From an uncultured Ruthenibacterium sp. (GTDB lineage: Bacteria; Bacillota; Clostridia; Oscillospirales; Ruminococcaceae), in the NCBI GenBank assembly GCA_944386565.1, contig CALXBO010000002.1:1-64000 (forward strand): a stretch of DNA of 64,000 bases. Reading direction: 5' to 3'. The position numbers and the translations under genes were made by a program. Shown here one piece after another: positions 12,212 to 17,342 of this stretch. The stretch's first letter is position 1. Every line of letters begins with the position of its first letter. Under the pieces are notes generated by a model that worked only from the letters and a program-made list of their open reading frames with translations, had not been told where the DNA came from and did no database searches.

Positions 12212-12242
12212 TATCAGTTTGCGGACAGAGAGGAGATGCACC

Positions 12243-14207
12243 GTGTTGTCACAATTTTGGTTTGGCTTTGCGGCCGCGGCGGTGCTCATTTGCGTGTGTG
12301 TAGGAGCGCTGTTCCAAAAGGGACTGCGTACAATAAAAGGATTTTGGATGCGGGGAGCGCTCTGGTCGGCGCTTGTCTTTTGTGTTGCGCAGACGGCTGC
12401 CGCCTGGGTGGTCGAATCCGGAGCGGCGGCCGGCTGGGTCGTTCCGGTGCTGTCGGCGTGTTCTTTCGCCCTGGCGCCGTTCCCGGCTGTCTGCCTGGTG
12501 ATGAGCGATGCAAGCCGTGTGCGTGATACATGGTGGAAGGAGAGAAAACTCTCGCTGTTCCTGCCGGTTCCGGCACTTGTGTCCGCGCTTGCCTGTGCAG
12601 GCTGTCTGATCTGGAGCCTGACAGGTGCGGAAAGCGAGTTCCCGGCTGAGATCCTGCGCATCGTCAGCACCGCAGTCACGATTTTATACGCTGCGGCGGC
12701 GCTTGTGACGTCGGCGCCGGTGCTTCGCGAGCACTTTCTCCGTGTACCGCGGAAGGAAGAGGCAGCGGGCATCCTGTGCGCTGTCTGCGTGATCGCGGGC
12801 GCAGTGTTTGCCCTTTGCACTCCGGCCGGAACGGCAGCACTTGCGCTCGGAACTGTCTGTGGCGCGGCGATCCTGTTCGGTGTCGGAGCGCCGCCGACGT
12901 TGTATGACGACCGCGTGACGAGAATCTATTCCCGCGCGGCGTTTGAGCAGGTCGTCCGTACTTATTTTGAGGAAAATCGTCCGTTCACCTGCACGGCTGT
13001 CGTGATCCCGCAGCTTGCACTGCTGGAATCGGCGAGCGGAGAGAAGCGGGGCGGCGAGCTTCTGCGGGATGTGAGTTCCTGCCTCCGCAAGGCTGCACGG
13101 CGCAGCGCGGTCTACCGCGTGGATGACGCGGTGTTCGTGATTGTTGACAAGGGCTTTGAACGCCGTGAGCAGATGATGGCCCAGCTGGAGACGCGGTTTG
13201 AGCAACCGTGGAAAACGTTCGGGCGGATGGAGATCCGCTTCGTCAAGCTGTACGCACCGCAGGACTGCACGGATGCGGCGGGGCTTCTCCGCGTGCTGAA
13301 GGAGCTGTCCGGGCGTGCGGCAAAGGCGGGAAGCCCGATGCTTCTGTCGTGCGACGACGCCATGCAGGCTGTCACAGCGCGGCGCAAGGCAGTTGCGGCG
13401 GCGTTTGCCGCGGCGGTGGCCGACGATTCGTTTGAAGTCGTGTTTCAGCCGGTGTATACCCCGCGTGTGCATCAGGTGACGGCAGCCAAAGCATATGCGC
13501 GCCTGACGCACGACGAGCTCGGAGAGATCACAGACGAAGAACTCCGGTTTGCCGCGCGGGAACTGCACGAGGAACTCCGGTTCGGCACGATGATGTTCGA
13601 GCGGGCCTGCGGAGCGCTCCGGAGTGAAAATGTATTTTCAACCTGTGTAGAGGAAATCTGTTTTGCACTGACGCCGCGCCAGTGGATGCGCAGCGGACTG
13701 GCCGATGAGTTGGCCGCGATCGCCCGAAAGTACGAACTCGATCTGAAGCGCTTTGTCTTTGAAGCGCCGGAAGAATGCATCCGCGAGGAGGGCAGCGAGT
13801 TCTTTGTCAATACCGACCGCCTGTTTGCGTTCGGTTCGCGCTATGCGCTCGGTGGTTTCGGAACGTCGGAGTGCAATCTGGTCCGTCTTTTGTCGCTGGA
13901 TGTCAGAACGATCAAGCTGGACAAAGAGCTCGTCTGGGCATACTGCCGCGGAGAAACAACGGTTCCCGATTATCTCGCGCCGCTGTTTGCCTCCAAGGGC
14001 AAACGTCTGATCGCGGAGGGCATTGAGACGAAGCGCCATGCGGACGCGATGACCAAGCTGGGCTGCACGAGCCTTCAGGGCTATTATTATGCGAGACCCA
14101 TGCCGGCGTCCGATCTCGTCGCTTATGTTTCGTCCGCCACCAGCGCGTGGGAGCACTTTGTGCGTGAACACGAAGAACATTCCGAGTCCGAACCGGACGG
14201 TAAATAA
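12243..14207 (+). CDS. Membrane protein with degenerate GGDEF and EAL domains
   Basis: A 654-aa protein with about seven hydrophobic segments (residues 1-225), a GGDEF-like region and a C-terminal EAL-like domain. The GGDEF signature position reads RVDDAVF, so cyclase activity is unlikely. In the EAL domain the catalytic EAL is replaced by AKAYARL (Lys416 where the metal-binding Glu is expected) and DDFGTG by GGFGTS, whereas IKLDK, AEGIET and LGCTSLQGYYYARPMP are kept. The fold is clear but the metal site is not, so it may be a c-di-GMP receptor or a nucleotide-independent regulator rather than a phosphodiesterase. GTG at 12243 is chosen because GAGGAG precedes it by seven bases. Confidence 0.85.
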   Translation: MLSQFWFGFAAAAVLICVCVGALFQKGLRTIKGFWMRGALWSALVFCVAQTAAAWVVESGAAAGWVVPVLSACSFALAPFPAVCLVMSDASRVRDTWWKERKLSLFLPVPALVSALACAGCLIWSLTGAESEFPAEILRIVSTAVTILYAAAALVTSAPVLREHFLRVPRKEEAAGILCAVCVIAGAVFALCTPAGTAALALGTVCGAAILFGVGAPPTLYDDRVTRIYSRAAFEQVVRTYFEENRPFTCTAVVIPQLALLESASGEKRGGELLRDVSSCLRKAARRSAVYRVDDAVFVIVDKGFERREQMMAQLETRFEQPWKTFGRMEIRFVKLYAPQDCTDAAGLLRVLKELSGRAAKAGSPMLLSCDDAMQAVTARRKAVAAAFAAAVADDSFEVVFQPVYTPRVHQVTAAKAYARLTHDELGEITDEELRFAARELHEELRFGTMMFERACGALRSENVFSTCVEEICFALTPRQWMRSGLADELAAIARKYELDLKRFVFEAPEECIREEGSEFFVNTDRLFAFGSRYALGGFGTSECNLVRLLSLDVRTIKLDKELVWAYCRGETTVPDYLAPLFASKGKRLIAEGIETKRHADAMTKLGCTSLQGYYYARPMPASDLVAYVSSATSAWEHFVREHEEHSESEPDGK

Positions 14208-14216
14208 ACACGATGA

Positions 14217-14247
14217 AGCACACCTGTTGCGACGGGTGTGCTTTTTT
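14217..14247 (+). terminator. Terminator of the GGDEF/EAL-like gene
   Basis: AGCACACC and GGTGTGCT (14217-14224 with 14235-14242) form a stem followed by TTTTTTATT. The repressor's operator region begins directly after it. Confidence 0.88.
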
Positions 14248-14300
14248 ATTGACAAATGTAGATGAATTTCATTGACAAATGTAAATGAATGGCGTATGAT
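14248..14300 (+). promoter_or_regulatory. Promoter with tandem operator-like repeats before the BlaI-like gene
   Basis: Two 20-base direct repeats (14248-14267 and 14271-14290) differ at one base and share ATTGACAAATGTA; they are spaced 23 bases start to start. The second supplies the -35 box TTGACA (14272-14277), which has a 17-base spacer to TATGAT (14295-14300). BlaI/MecI/CopY repressors bind TACA/TGTA-type sites, and TGTA is present in each copy. The repeats are therefore the natural candidates for autoregulation. Confidence 0.75.
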
Positions 14301-14329
14301 ATAAATGTCGACAAAAGGGGGATTCGTTT

Positions 14330-14728
14330 ATGACCATTCAGGAAAAACTGCCGGAGGCTGAGCTCGACGTCATGCTCAGTCTGTGGAAGGATACGCAGCC
14401 GGTGCGCACGGCGCGTATCTGGGAAGATCTCCGGCAGGATCACGACTGGACGTTGTCCACCGTAAAAGCTCTGCTCACGAGGCTGGCGGACAAGGGGTGG
14501 GTGGATGTGACGCGGGAGGGCCGCTTTACATTGTACCGTGCAGCGGTTTCCGAAGAGGAGTACCGCAGGCGCGAGACGGGCGGTCTGCTGCGGCGCTATT
14601 TCGACAATTCACCCAAGAAACTCATTGCGGCGCTGGTGCAGGAGAGCGAGCTGTCCGGTGAGGATATCGCCGAGTTGGAAGAACTGATCCGAAAGGCGAG
14701 GGAAGAAAATGGTGATCCGAAACTTTGA
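14330..14728 (+). CDS. BlaI/MecI/CopY-family transcriptional repressor
   Basis: A 132-aa repressor with the N-terminal winged helix of the BlaI family (LPEAELDVMLSLWKD, then TLSTVKALLTRLADKGWVDVTREGRFTLY) and a helical C-terminal dimerisation part. In known systems a membrane M56 protease, BlaR1 or MecR1, causes loss of the repressor when it senses antibiotic. The same order is seen here: the repressor overlaps an M56 gene by 20 bases. GGGGG lies eight bases before the ATG. No beta-lactamase gene is nearby, so the regulon is probably the locus itself and the EnvC-like gene. Confidence 0.92.
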   Translation: MTIQEKLPEAELDVMLSLWKDTQPVRTARIWEDLRQDHDWTLSTVKALLTRLADKGWVDVTREGRFTLYRAAVSEEEYRRRETGGLLRRYFDNSPKKLIAALVQESELSGEDIAELEELIRKAREENGDPKL

Positions 14729-16148
14729 AGCGGTCTTGGCTGTTACCCCGTGGCTGTGTGCGCTGATCGCCGTGTTGTTTGCAGTCCGGCGGATGTGCGA
14801 CGGCCGCGTTCGAGCCCGGACGTTCCGGGTAATCTGGTTCGTTGTTGCCGTGCGTGCGGCGCTGCCGGTGCAGTTCACACTGCCTCAGGCGCCCGCATCG
14901 TTCGACCTCCCCGAATGGGGGGACAAACCGGTCACGGTATTCCGCACGGCGTCCGGCGCTGCCGGTGAGGTGCTGCCGGTGACCGAAACGGCCGCGCCGG
15001 TTTCGCTCCACGCGGTGCTGGCGTTTGTGTGGGCGGCGGTCGCGGCCGGGTTGGCGCTTGTGTACGCGGTGCGCTGGCTGATGTTTGTCATCCGCCTGTA
15101 CCGCACCCGGTCGCCGATGCCGGGATATGTGAAAGTCTACACATCCCCGAAAGCAGATGTTCCGTTTGCATTCGGTTTGCTGCATCCGGCGGTATATCTG
15201 CCGGAAACTGCGGAACCGGACGACGTGCCGTATATTCTGGAACATGAGATGCGTCATATCCGCGCGGGAGACCTGTGGCTTCAGGCGGTGTTGCTCGCGG
15301 CGCAGTGTGTGCAGTGGTTCAATCCGCTCGTGCACATCATGGCACGAATGGCGCGCCGGGACATGGAACTGGCCTGTGACGAGGCCGTGCTGGAACACCG
15401 CGCGATGGCATACCGCATCCGCTACGCACAGACCGTTCTCAACGCAATGCGCACAGCAAGGCGGAAAACTCTTCTGGCCGCGCCCTTGTGCGGGCACAGG
15501 GCAAACAAAGTGCGCTGGAGAGAGATGTTCAATCTGAGCCGAAAGAAAAAGGCGGGCGCACTGGTTGCCGCGGCCTGCACGACCGTGCTTCTGGCGAGCC
15601 TGCTCATGGGATGCAATACGGCATCGGGGACAGAGCGGAGTGTGAGTGAGTCCGGGAGCGTTTCGCCGTACAGCGCACCGCTCGAGTTGGGCGCGCAGGA
15701 GGAAACGGAAGAATCTCCGCAATCGGCGCAGGCGGAGCAGATCACGGTTTCTGAGGAAACAAACGGTGAGGCAGCGGACGAGGTCTACTGGCCTGTACCG
15801 GATTACACTTATCTCGCGACGAGATTTATGCAAGGCGGTCACCGCGGTATCGAGATCTGCGCTCCGAGCGGTACAGCTATTTTTGCCGTTCAAGGTGGAA
15901 CGGTCACGTTCAGCGGCTATAACGATTCATTTGGAAACCACGTGGAGATTGACTGCGGGGATGGACTCGCGATGCTCTATGCACATTGCAGCGAATTGTA
16001 TGTGACGGAAGGACAGAGTGTCGCAACAGGAGATCTGATTGCCGCGGTGGGCGCTACGGGAATGGCTTCAGGGAATCAGTGCCATTTGGAGATGACTCGA
16101 GACGGAATACTGTTTGACCCGGGGGCGATCCTGACGCTCCCCGATTGA
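14709..16148 (+). CDS. BlaR1-like M56 membrane protease fused to a degenerate M23 domain
   Basis: A 479-aa protein with BlaR1-type topology: two helices in the first 50 residues, a third near 105-130, a zinc-protease loop with HEMRH (179-183) and ELACDEA, and a fourth helix at about 281-302 ending in the lipobox-like LLMGC. Instead of the penicillin-binding sensor of BlaR1, the external part is a LytM/M23 endopeptidase-like domain (about 360-479). Its zinc and catalytic residues are incomplete: His378 and His459 are present and YAH (His426) is kept, but the expected Asp is Glu382 and the first His of HLH is Gln457. I infer a sensor that binds wall peptides rather than an active hydrolase. GAGGGAAG precedes the ATG. 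Confidence 0.85.
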   Translation: MVIRNFEAVLAVTPWLCALIAVLFAVRRMCDGRVRARTFRVIWFVVAVRAALPVQFTLPQAPASFDLPEWGDKPVTVFRTASGAAGEVLPVTETAAPVSLHAVLAFVWAAVAAGLALVYAVRWLMFVIRLYRTRSPMPGYVKVYTSPKADVPFAFGLLHPAVYLPETAEPDDVPYILEHEMRHIRAGDLWLQAVLLAAQCVQWFNPLVHIMARMARRDMELACDEAVLEHRAMAYRIRYAQTVLNAMRTARRKTLLAAPLCGHRANKVRWREMFNLSRKKKAGALVAAACTTVLLASLLMGCNTASGTERSVSESGSVSPYSAPLELGAQEETEESPQSAQAEQITVSEETNGEAADEVYWPVPDYTYLATRFMQGGHRGIEICAPSGTAIFAVQGGTVTFSGYNDSFGNHVEIDCGDGLAMLYAHCSELYVTEGQSVATGDLIAAVGATGMASGNQCHLEMTRDGILFDPGAILTLPD

Positions 16149-16152
16149 GACG

Positions 16153-16181
16153 TTGATACACCTTTGATACAATTCTATGTT
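16153..16181 (+). promoter_or_regulatory. Possible internal promoter for the EnvC-like gene
   Basis: TTGATA (16153-16158), a 17-base spacer and TATGTT (16176-16181), just after the M56::M23 stop codon. It would let the EnvC-like gene be expressed apart from the repressor and sensor. Confidence 0.45.
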
Positions 16182-16211
16182 ATGATACTCCGCAAAAGCG
16201 GAGGGACGAGG

Positions 16212-17342
16212 ATGAAGCGGAAACGAATCGCCGCCGCACTGTGTGCGGCGGCTCTTTGCATCGGTATGTTCAGCGCGTCGTTTGCCGAGACGCCGGCGGA
16301 AAAGGTGGAGCGGCTGCGGCAGGAGAGCGCGGCGGCGGAAGAGAATGTTGAGGCACATGAGGCGGCCGTTCAGACGGCGGCAAACCAGAAAGAAGCGTAC
16401 ACCCAGAAAGTGCAGGCGATCCAGCAGCAGATCGAGATCCAGAAGCAGCTCGTGACGGCGCAGAAGGAGGTGCTGGACGAAGCCTGCCGGGCCACGGCGG
16501 ACAAACTGCTGGAGACGGAGCGCACGCGCGCGCTGTTCGAGGACCGGCTCGTTGCCATGTACATCCGCCACAACAATTCGGATCTGGCGACGCTTCTCTC
16601 GGTCTCTACATTTGCGGAAGCTGTGAGGTATATCGACAATCTCCGGGCAATCGCGCAGTCGGACACGGAGCTTCTGGAGACGCTGCGAAAACAGAGCGAA
16701 GAACTGGCGGCGCGGCAGGCGGAGGAAGAGGCGGCGTATCAGCAGCTTCAGGCCGATCAGGCTGCACTGGAACAGCAGGGCGCGGAGCTGGCCGACGCGC
16801 TGCAGAAAGCCGAGGCGGCGTACTCCAAGGAGCAGGCGGATCTCGCCGCAGCGCAGGCGACCGCGACGCAGACCGGGGAAGAGCTGAAAAAAGCGGAAGA
16901 GGAATATGCGGCGTGGGTGGCGCAGAACGACAACAGTTCACCGGAATTTACAGACGGCGTGTTTCAGTGGCCCCTGCCGGGTTATACAAGAGTCTCGTCA
17001 CCATTCGGATGGCGCACTCTCAACGGAAAGCAGGATTTTCACCGGGGCATTGATCTTCCCGCACCGCAGGGAACGCGCATTTATGCGGCCGCGAGCGGCG
17101 TTGTCTCGTTCAACGCCCATTCGAGTTACGGCAACTGCGTGAAAATCAGCCACGGCGGCGGCCTTGTGACGATCTACGCGCATATGACTGCACATGCGGA
17201 ATCTTTGTACGAGGGATGCACGGTTCAGGCGGGCGACCTGGTCGGGTACGTCGGCAACACAGGCAATTCCTACGGAAACCACCTTCATTTTGAAGCGGAT
17301 CTCAACGGTCAACCGGTGAGTGTTTATAATTATCTGGGATAA
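16212..17342 (+). CDS. EnvC-like secreted coiled-coil M23 peptidase
   Basis: A 376-aa exported protein. The signal peptide (KRKRIAAALCAAALCIGMFSASFA) is followed by about 200 residues of alanine-, glutamate- and glutamine-rich coiled coil and a C-terminal M23/LytM domain. The metal and catalytic residues are complete: HRGID (His277, Asp281), YAH (His324) and HLH (His357, His359). Proteins of this design cleave peptidoglycan cross-bridges or activate amidases during cell separation. The ATG at 16212 follows GGAGGGACGAGG; sixteen further codons are open upstream without a binding site. It lies 63 bases downstream of the M56::M23 sensor gene. Confidence 0.9.
   Translation: MKRKRIAAALCAAALCIGMFSASFAETPAEKVERLRQESAAAEENVEAHEAAVQTAANQKEAYTQKVQAIQQQIEIQKQLVTAQKEVLDEACRATADKLLETERTRALFEDRLVAMYIRHNNSDLATLLSVSTFAEAVRYIDNLRAIAQSDTELLETLRKQSEELAARQAEEEAAYQQLQADQAALEQQGAELADALQKAEAAYSKEQADLAAAQATATQTGEELKKAEEEYAAWVAQNDNSSPEFTDGVFQWPLPGYTRVSSPFGWRTLNGKQDFHRGIDLPAPQGTRIYAAASGVVSFNAHSSYGNCVKISHGGGLVTIYAHMTAHAESLYEGCTVQAGDLVGYVGNTGNSYGNHLHFEADLNGQPVSVYNYLG

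Follow-up and report, generated by a model that had tools for sequence, protein, structure and literature searches.

What does a receptor built like BlaR1 sense when its outer domain is not a penicillin-binding one, but a peptidoglycan endopeptidase fold with part of its active site replaced? This question is raised by positions 14330-17342 of the window, by which we mean the whole stretch of 64,000 nucleotides analysed here (contig C2 of the 2.43-Mb genome of an uncultured Ruthenibacterium sp., most likely a gut bacterium). Three plus-strand genes lie there, encoding a BlaI-type repressor, a receptor in which an M56 protease is joined to an M23 domain, and a secreted coiled-coil M23 protein. 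The answer that we consider somewhat probable is that of a BlaR1-type receptor whose outer sensor, a LytM-fold pseudo-endopeptidase, holds wall peptides, cross-links or a partner hydrolase uncut and signals to the BlaI-type repressor. The repeated loss of a catalytic histidine from M23 domains fused to M56 proteases is the observation that leads there.

Anatomy of the receptor

The features on which the argument rests are the following:

14330..14728, plus strand: BlaI/MecI-type repressor of 132 amino acids (Pfam PF03965, E 4.6e-30)
14709..16148, plus strand: M56-M23 receptor of 479 amino acids (PF05569 and PF01551; AlphaFold2 model; BlaR1 and LytM fold matches)
15243..15257, plus strand: HEMRH gluzincin motif of the M56 active site, residues 179-183
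15549..15614, plus strand: fourth transmembrane helix (TM4), residues 281-302, ending in a lipobox-like LLMGC (pattern match)
15837..16121, plus strand: M23/LytM sensor domain, residues 377-471, with E382 and Q457 (PF01551; active-site column alignment)
16212..17342, plus strand: secreted coiled-coil M23 peptidoglycan hydrolase-like protein of 376 amino acids, P0002 (PF01551, E 9.9e-29)

A chance origin of this layout is excluded by the Pfam E-values, by relatives of 59% to 36% identity that have the same layout, and by the AlphaFold2 model. The repressor and receptor genes overlap by 20 nucleotides, and the original prediction, made from the sequence alone, had correctly described them as a BlaI-type gene overlapping a BlaR1-type gene with an intact HEMRH. 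The M56 half matches PF05569 over residues 17-252 (E 3.9e-36) and carries the HExxH...ExxxD site of MEROPS family M56. All residues named as critical for the BlaR1 catalytic site (His201-Glu-x-x-His205, Asp210, Glu242, Asp246, Tyr261 and Arg294; PMC9834060) have counterparts in H179/E180/H183, D188, E220, D224, Y239 and R269, with spacing that is exact except for the Arg; H179, E180, H183, E220, D224, Y239 and R269 are invariant across 34 fusions, and the M56 site is complete. In the AlphaFold2 model, built from a 34-sequence alignment (mean predicted local distance difference test score, pLDDT, 83; about 97 in the M23 part), the membrane part is predicted to adopt the BlaR1-type fold, matching the cryo-electron microscopy structures of Staphylococcus aureus BlaR1 (8exs_A, Z 18.2, 237 residues over 5-267; 8exr_A, Z 14.6). 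The receptor nevertheless works like BlaR1 by anatomy without being a BlaR1, because it scores below the NCBIfam BlaR1/MecR1 equivalog cut-offs (NF000326, 75 bits against 400; NF033109, 42.5 against 1200) and its outer domain is M23 rather than a penicillin-binding sensor with SxxK.

The helix that joins the two halves spans residues 283-307 in the model. A lipobox of the Gram-positive, K-hydrophobic-LxGC type stands at the end of TM4 in 41 proteins of a non-redundant set of 148 M56 proteins, where shuffled sequences would give 6.8, and in none of them in TM1 or TM3. Judging from this motif, processing might release the sensor as a lipoprotein of its own, and the signal would then have to cross the membrane in another way.

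The outer domain matches PF01551 over residues 377-471 (E 9.2e-25), and the model pairs residues ~355-477 with LytM-type enzymes at Z 19-21 (6muk, 21.4; EnvC 4bh5, 20.3; LytM 2b13, 19.6); the M23/LytM-like external domain of the original prediction thus holds, also by the structural comparison that had been proposed as its check. An active M23 peptidase presents HxxxD, YxH and HxH together. Here H378, H426 and H459 are kept, while the zinc Asp is replaced by Glu382 (GAG, 15852-15854) and the first His of HxH by Gln457 (CAG, 16077-16079), so that the codons and the active-site alignment bear out the two substitutions that had been proposed. The resulting QCH motif is apparently derived from HCH, and Glu382, together with H378 and H459, could still coordinate zinc. 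The nearest orthologue, 59% identical and with the same three-gene layout, has suffered a different loss, its HCH having become HCC through replacement of the second His by Cys.

The meaning of the change at Gln457 becomes clearer from Pgp3 of Campylobacter jejuni, in which H168, D172 and H249 of HxH bind zinc, whilst H216 and H247 are non-ligand histidines positioned to activate water (PMC6978369). H247 is the first His of HxH and corresponds to Gln457; crystals of Pgp3 with a bound stem pentapeptide or a bound cross-linked tetra-tri peptide were obtained from the H247A form (PMC6978369). By homology to Pgp3 H247A, we infer that the loss of this residue would leave the window receptor with a groove that still binds peptides but no longer cuts them.

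Between the window and its sister, the ratio of non-synonymous to synonymous substitution rates (dN/dS) is 0.13 for the M23 domain, with dS near saturation, and 0.21 for the M56 part; since the former is the lower, the M23 domain is not decaying. It is, in short, conserved and predicted to be folded, minus the residue that activates the attacking water.

Loss and probable exchange in fused M23 domains

The host's family and order yielded about 60 distinct M56-M23 fusions; in the genome contigs, a single-sequence query gave no close relatives and an alignment query did. Free M23 domains were taken from these same genomes, four of which were covered by a census. Among 74 fused M23 domains that could be scored, 36 are intact and 38 degenerate, and the tabulation of metal residues that had been suggested separates fused from free domains, of which 52 of 57 are intact and only 5 degenerate (Fisher 2e-7; 33/63 against 5/43 among cluster representatives, 1e-5). 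The losses are far from evenly spread: 18 fused domains lack the first HxH His only, 4 the YxH His only and 2 the second HxH His only, with more than one residue missing in the other 14. The first HxH His thus accounts for 18 of 24 single changes (binomial 1e-8; 14 of 20 among cluster representatives, 2e-6), being replaced by Q, A, C, F, V, N or L, whilst the zinc ligands are usually kept. Counted over all changes, it is lost in 30 of 74 fused domains against 1 of 57 free ones (Fisher 4e-8; cluster representatives 5e-6), and no free domain lacks it alone. On a poorly resolved domain tree, this residue requires at least 19 changes; fused and free domains intermingle on the same tree with 15 changes, of which the starred branches force only 2. 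Such repeated loss at the cutting residue suggests that the fused enzyme part serves to sense the wall instead of cutting it.

Where pairs of receptors both lack the His or more, the M23 part shows dN/dS values of 0.12-0.26 (L043/L208, 0.12; L182/L190, 0.15; L180/L184, 0.26). Other pairs differ chiefly in the sensor. L036 and L168 are 97-100% identical in blaI, in the M56 part and in most of what lies downstream, and only 67-95% identical in the M23 part, with the first HxH His kept in L036 and lost (to Asn) in L168; L174 and L179 have a near-identical receptor and flanks around an M23 part of ~55-75% identity. As identity recovers on both sides of the M23 part in these two pairs, their alignments look like replacement of a sensor cassette by recombination. 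A DNA search of six genomes for the donor of the L168 cassette gave only orthologous receptors as best matches.

Several variations on the architecture deserve mention. Tandem arrays of two or three M23 domains, in which some copies are usually dead, are found in the receptors of L039 (3470-5509), L188 (4009-6498), L207 (2991-5366) and L065 (5551-7476). Adjacent gene pairs in L276 (1035-4292) and L279 (995-3867) encode strongly degenerate M23 domains that are not M56 fusions. In an M56 receptor fragment of L041 (2668-4185), the protease is followed, as judged by eye, by an SGNH-hydrolase-like stretch and then by a degenerate M23 domain. In the plasmid collection, one near-full-length relative was found in a Subdoligranulum variabile record, where it is unannotated.

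Repressor, operators and neighbouring genes

The control of the module involves these further elements:

14215..14244, plus strand: terminator-like hairpin with a T tail, 3' of the upstream GGDEF/EAL-like gene (consensus scan)
14251..14260, plus strand: predicted BlaI-type operator 1, GACAAATGTA (exact-copy search)
14272..14300, plus strand: promoter of the blaI-receptor operon, TTGACA-17-TATGAT (11/12 consensus matches)
14274..14283, plus strand: predicted BlaI-type operator 2, GACAAATGTA, overlapping the -35 box
16145..16173, plus strand: possible own promoter of the downstream gene, TTGAGA-17-TACAAT with an extended -10 (10/12 consensus)

The repressor combines the PF03965 profile with predicted operators at its own promoter, a pair of GACAAATGTA boxes at the -35 region, and its gene is by prediction co-transcribed with that of the receptor. 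Within the window, ACAAATGTA occurs only in these two boxes (expected mean 0.08). Upstream of blaI in the fusion loci of relatives, ACANNTGT is found 30 times where 4.5 would be expected, and the sites often come in pairs with a 23-base-pair spacing, which the window shares with five relatives (L035, L036, L168, L169 and L170).

A regulon search with sequence patterns in the window's genome, which has four M56 receptors, found operator pairs at two promoters only, both of blaI-M56 systems: that of the window and that of a locus on contig C1. The single other exact GACAAATGTA of the genome stands before the C1 blaI (C1:42768). As operator pairs are confined to these two promoters, the direct regulon of the window repressor is probably its own operon, possibly with cross-talk to the C1 system; beyond these, only the adjacent hydrolase gene is a candidate target. 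The C1 system (L209 4768-4808, 5222-9109) has the same operator pair as the window, and the two may cross-regulate; its receptor of 1295 amino acids bears BNR-like repeats, and of an M23 domain it has only a very weak trace, degenerate throughout.

All five residues of the P0002 active site (HDHHH) are intact by sequence, as the original prediction had said of this gene; its label "EnvC-like" holds for the layout only, since P0002 falls below the cut-off of every named family (EnvC NF008644, 29.1 against 270 bits; PcsB NF046104, 15.9 against 450 bits) and has in common with EnvC and PcsB only the layout of a coiled coil plus a wall hydrolase. The likely start is at 16212, the longer open reading frame from 16164 being a mechanical call. 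The sister genome holds an orthologue in the same place (77% identical), and a paralogue (44%) lies elsewhere in the window's own genome. Control of the downstream gene by an operator of its own was considered and rejected, as no ACANNTGT pair is found at its promoter and the pair occurs at only two genomic places; read-through therefore remains as the route of control, and no terminator is predicted on the gene's strand between it and the receptor gene.

The neighbourhoods of other fusions, whose inspection had also been proposed, show blaI directly upstream in 56 of 59 cases and an intact secreted M23 gene directly downstream in 8 of the 53 with enough sequence, against 0 of 74 M56 proteins without M23 (Fisher 7e-4). 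In Gemmiger-type loci, receptor and hydrolase genes are separated by 4-5 nucleotides or overlap by 4, and are therefore taken as operonic. Where a downstream M23 gene is present, it supports wall hydrolysis as the output. The predicted absence of a nearby beta-lactamase agrees with the profile search, in which the class A beta-lactamase/PBP-like family PF13354 has no match on the window contig and two on other contigs of the genome. Just upstream of the module, the gene at 12219-14207 encodes a membrane protein with, as judged by eye, GGDEF/EAL-like (cyclic-di-GMP) sequence; it is set apart from the module by the hairpin at 14215-14244 and is probably unrelated to it.

A proposed receptor made from a wall enzyme, and the alternatives

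The window locus shares with the BlaR1/MecR1 and BlaI/MecI systems of S. aureus and Bacillus licheniformis the repressor-receptor operon, the four-helix M56 protease with identical catalytic residues, an outer sensor taken from a wall-enzyme fold, and ACA..TGT-type operators at the repressor's own promoter. It differs from them in that its sensor belongs to the M23/LytM kind and not to the penicillin-binding, transpeptidase-like one, and in that the next gene encodes a wall hydrolase, with no beta-lactamase or PBP2a gene nearby. We envisage that the groove of the M23 domain would hold peptidoglycan peptides, cross-links or a partner wall hydrolase without cutting, that its occupancy would shift the sensor relative to the membrane and so turn on the cytoplasmic M56 protease, and that the activated protease would cleave the BlaI-type repressor, inducing the operon and, via read-through, the adjacent secreted M23 hydrolase. 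By analogy, this would be the same trick as that of BlaR1, a wall enzyme that binds without turnover, reached via a different fold. A second possible input is suggested by B. licheniformis, in which a peptidoglycan-derived dipeptide binds BlaI directly (PMC3305447).

The M56-M23 architecture itself is already known: an InterPro survey lists two-domain M23 + M56 proteins among the <1% of M23 proteins that have a second catalytic domain (PMC9662197), giving for this domain combination no function, catalytic-residue analysis or gene context. Non-catalytic LytM folds used for binding, as proposed here, are likewise familiar from EnvC, NlpD, ActS, SpoIIQ and Csd2. These are activators, partners or structural proteins, whereas the M23 domain of the window is fused to a signalling protease; in contrast to them, M56-fused domains usually keep the zinc site and mainly lose the catalytic His. 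Pgp3 H247A, changed at the same position, binds the stem pentapeptide and the cross-linked tetra-tri peptide without turnover, but it is an engineered mutant of a free enzyme, whereas the change in M56-fused domains is natural and recurrent. Our literature search found no paper on the pattern of catalytic loss in M56-M23 receptors, on their operators or on the exchange of their cassettes; for non-beta-lactam M56 receptors or lipobox-bearing M56 proteins it found nothing on point, an absence that is not proof.

Several observations weigh against a non-cutting sensor. Intact homologues, which the original prediction had counted as adverse if they cleave peptidoglycan, do exist as far as residues tell, 36 of the 74 fused domains keeping all five; and about 10 further fusions from an order-wide search, mostly of other families, comprise 7 intact and 3 wholly degenerate domains and none that lacks the catalytic His only. 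In the window protein, D382E makes zinc binding uncertain, and TM4 ends in a lipobox whose processing, should it occur, would sever the sensor from the protease. Most fusion loci lack a downstream M23 gene, and the one found here has its own predicted promoter with no operator in it. The degenerate site as a general rule of M56-M23 fusions has accordingly been rejected, because half of the fusions are intact and those of other families show no selective loss of the His: selective catalytic-His loss is a recurrent habit of the host's family, not a law. The wall-damage sensor of the original prediction is partly supported without that rule, on the strength of the BlaR1-type machinery with its intact protease site, the LytM-fold domain that has lost catalytic residues, the cognate repressor with predicted operators, the linkage to M23 genes, the recurrent His loss and the Pgp3 precedent.

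In the principal alternative, a wall amidase or hydrolase, possibly P0002, docks in the dead groove, so that the receptor senses the state of the hydrolase rather than that of the wall. EnvC and NlpD set the example, their degenerate LytM domains binding amidases through the dead groove (PMC9662197); the predicted structure is equally close to EnvC and to LytM, and the adjacent hydrolase gene is kept in the nearest relatives. We nevertheless regard this as unlikely, if worth keeping in view, as zinc ligands, for which a pure docking surface would have no need, are mostly kept while the catalytic His is lost on its own in 18 single-change domains, and most fusion loci have no hydrolase next to them. 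It is also conceivable that many fused M23 domains are effectors, that is, membrane-tethered wall endopeptidases under protease control, in which M56 senses something else or just regulates release of the M23 part and the window copy is secondarily inactive. The intact half of the fused domains would fit, and the TM4 lipobox could release the M23 part as a lipoprotein; yet loss of catalytic residues is much commoner in fused than in free domains, has recurred and comes with purifying selection, many fusions carry two or three M23 copies of which some are dead, and non-fused M56 receptors bear quite different outer domains in the same position, as sensors should, all of which makes effectors a rather improbable account. 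Functionless, relaxed decay of a dispensable outer domain on an autonomous autoregulator can draw on the different residues lost in two 59%-identical orthologues (E382/Q457 in the window, HCC in the sister). Set against the low M23 dN/dS in the window-sister pair and in the pairs lacking the His or more, the confidently predicted M23 fold, and cassettes that are exchanged, not deleted, it appears very improbable.

Extending the pseudo-endopeptidase reading to the family, we put forward only tentatively that the BlaR1 trick was invented a second time and independently: M56 receptors of the host's family would have repeatedly recruited M23 endopeptidases, dropped the turnover residue and kept the metal site to trap wall peptides, and would swap these sensor cassettes by recombination while the signalling half and the flanks stay near-identical. 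If true, peptidoglycan peptides would be sensed directly by a widespread, swappable family of receptors in control of wall hydrolases.

The locus bears on the use that bacteria make of the very common BlaI-M56 pairs when no beta-lactam challenges them, and it offers both a testable class of ligands, peptidoglycan peptides, and a defined promoter with predicted operators. The loss of the same catalytic His on its own, repeatedly and only in receptor-fused domains, amounts to a natural experiment; if the reading is confirmed, it would provide a new type of direct, one-protein sensor of wall peptides, as well as a rule of general scope for making receptors out of hydrolases.

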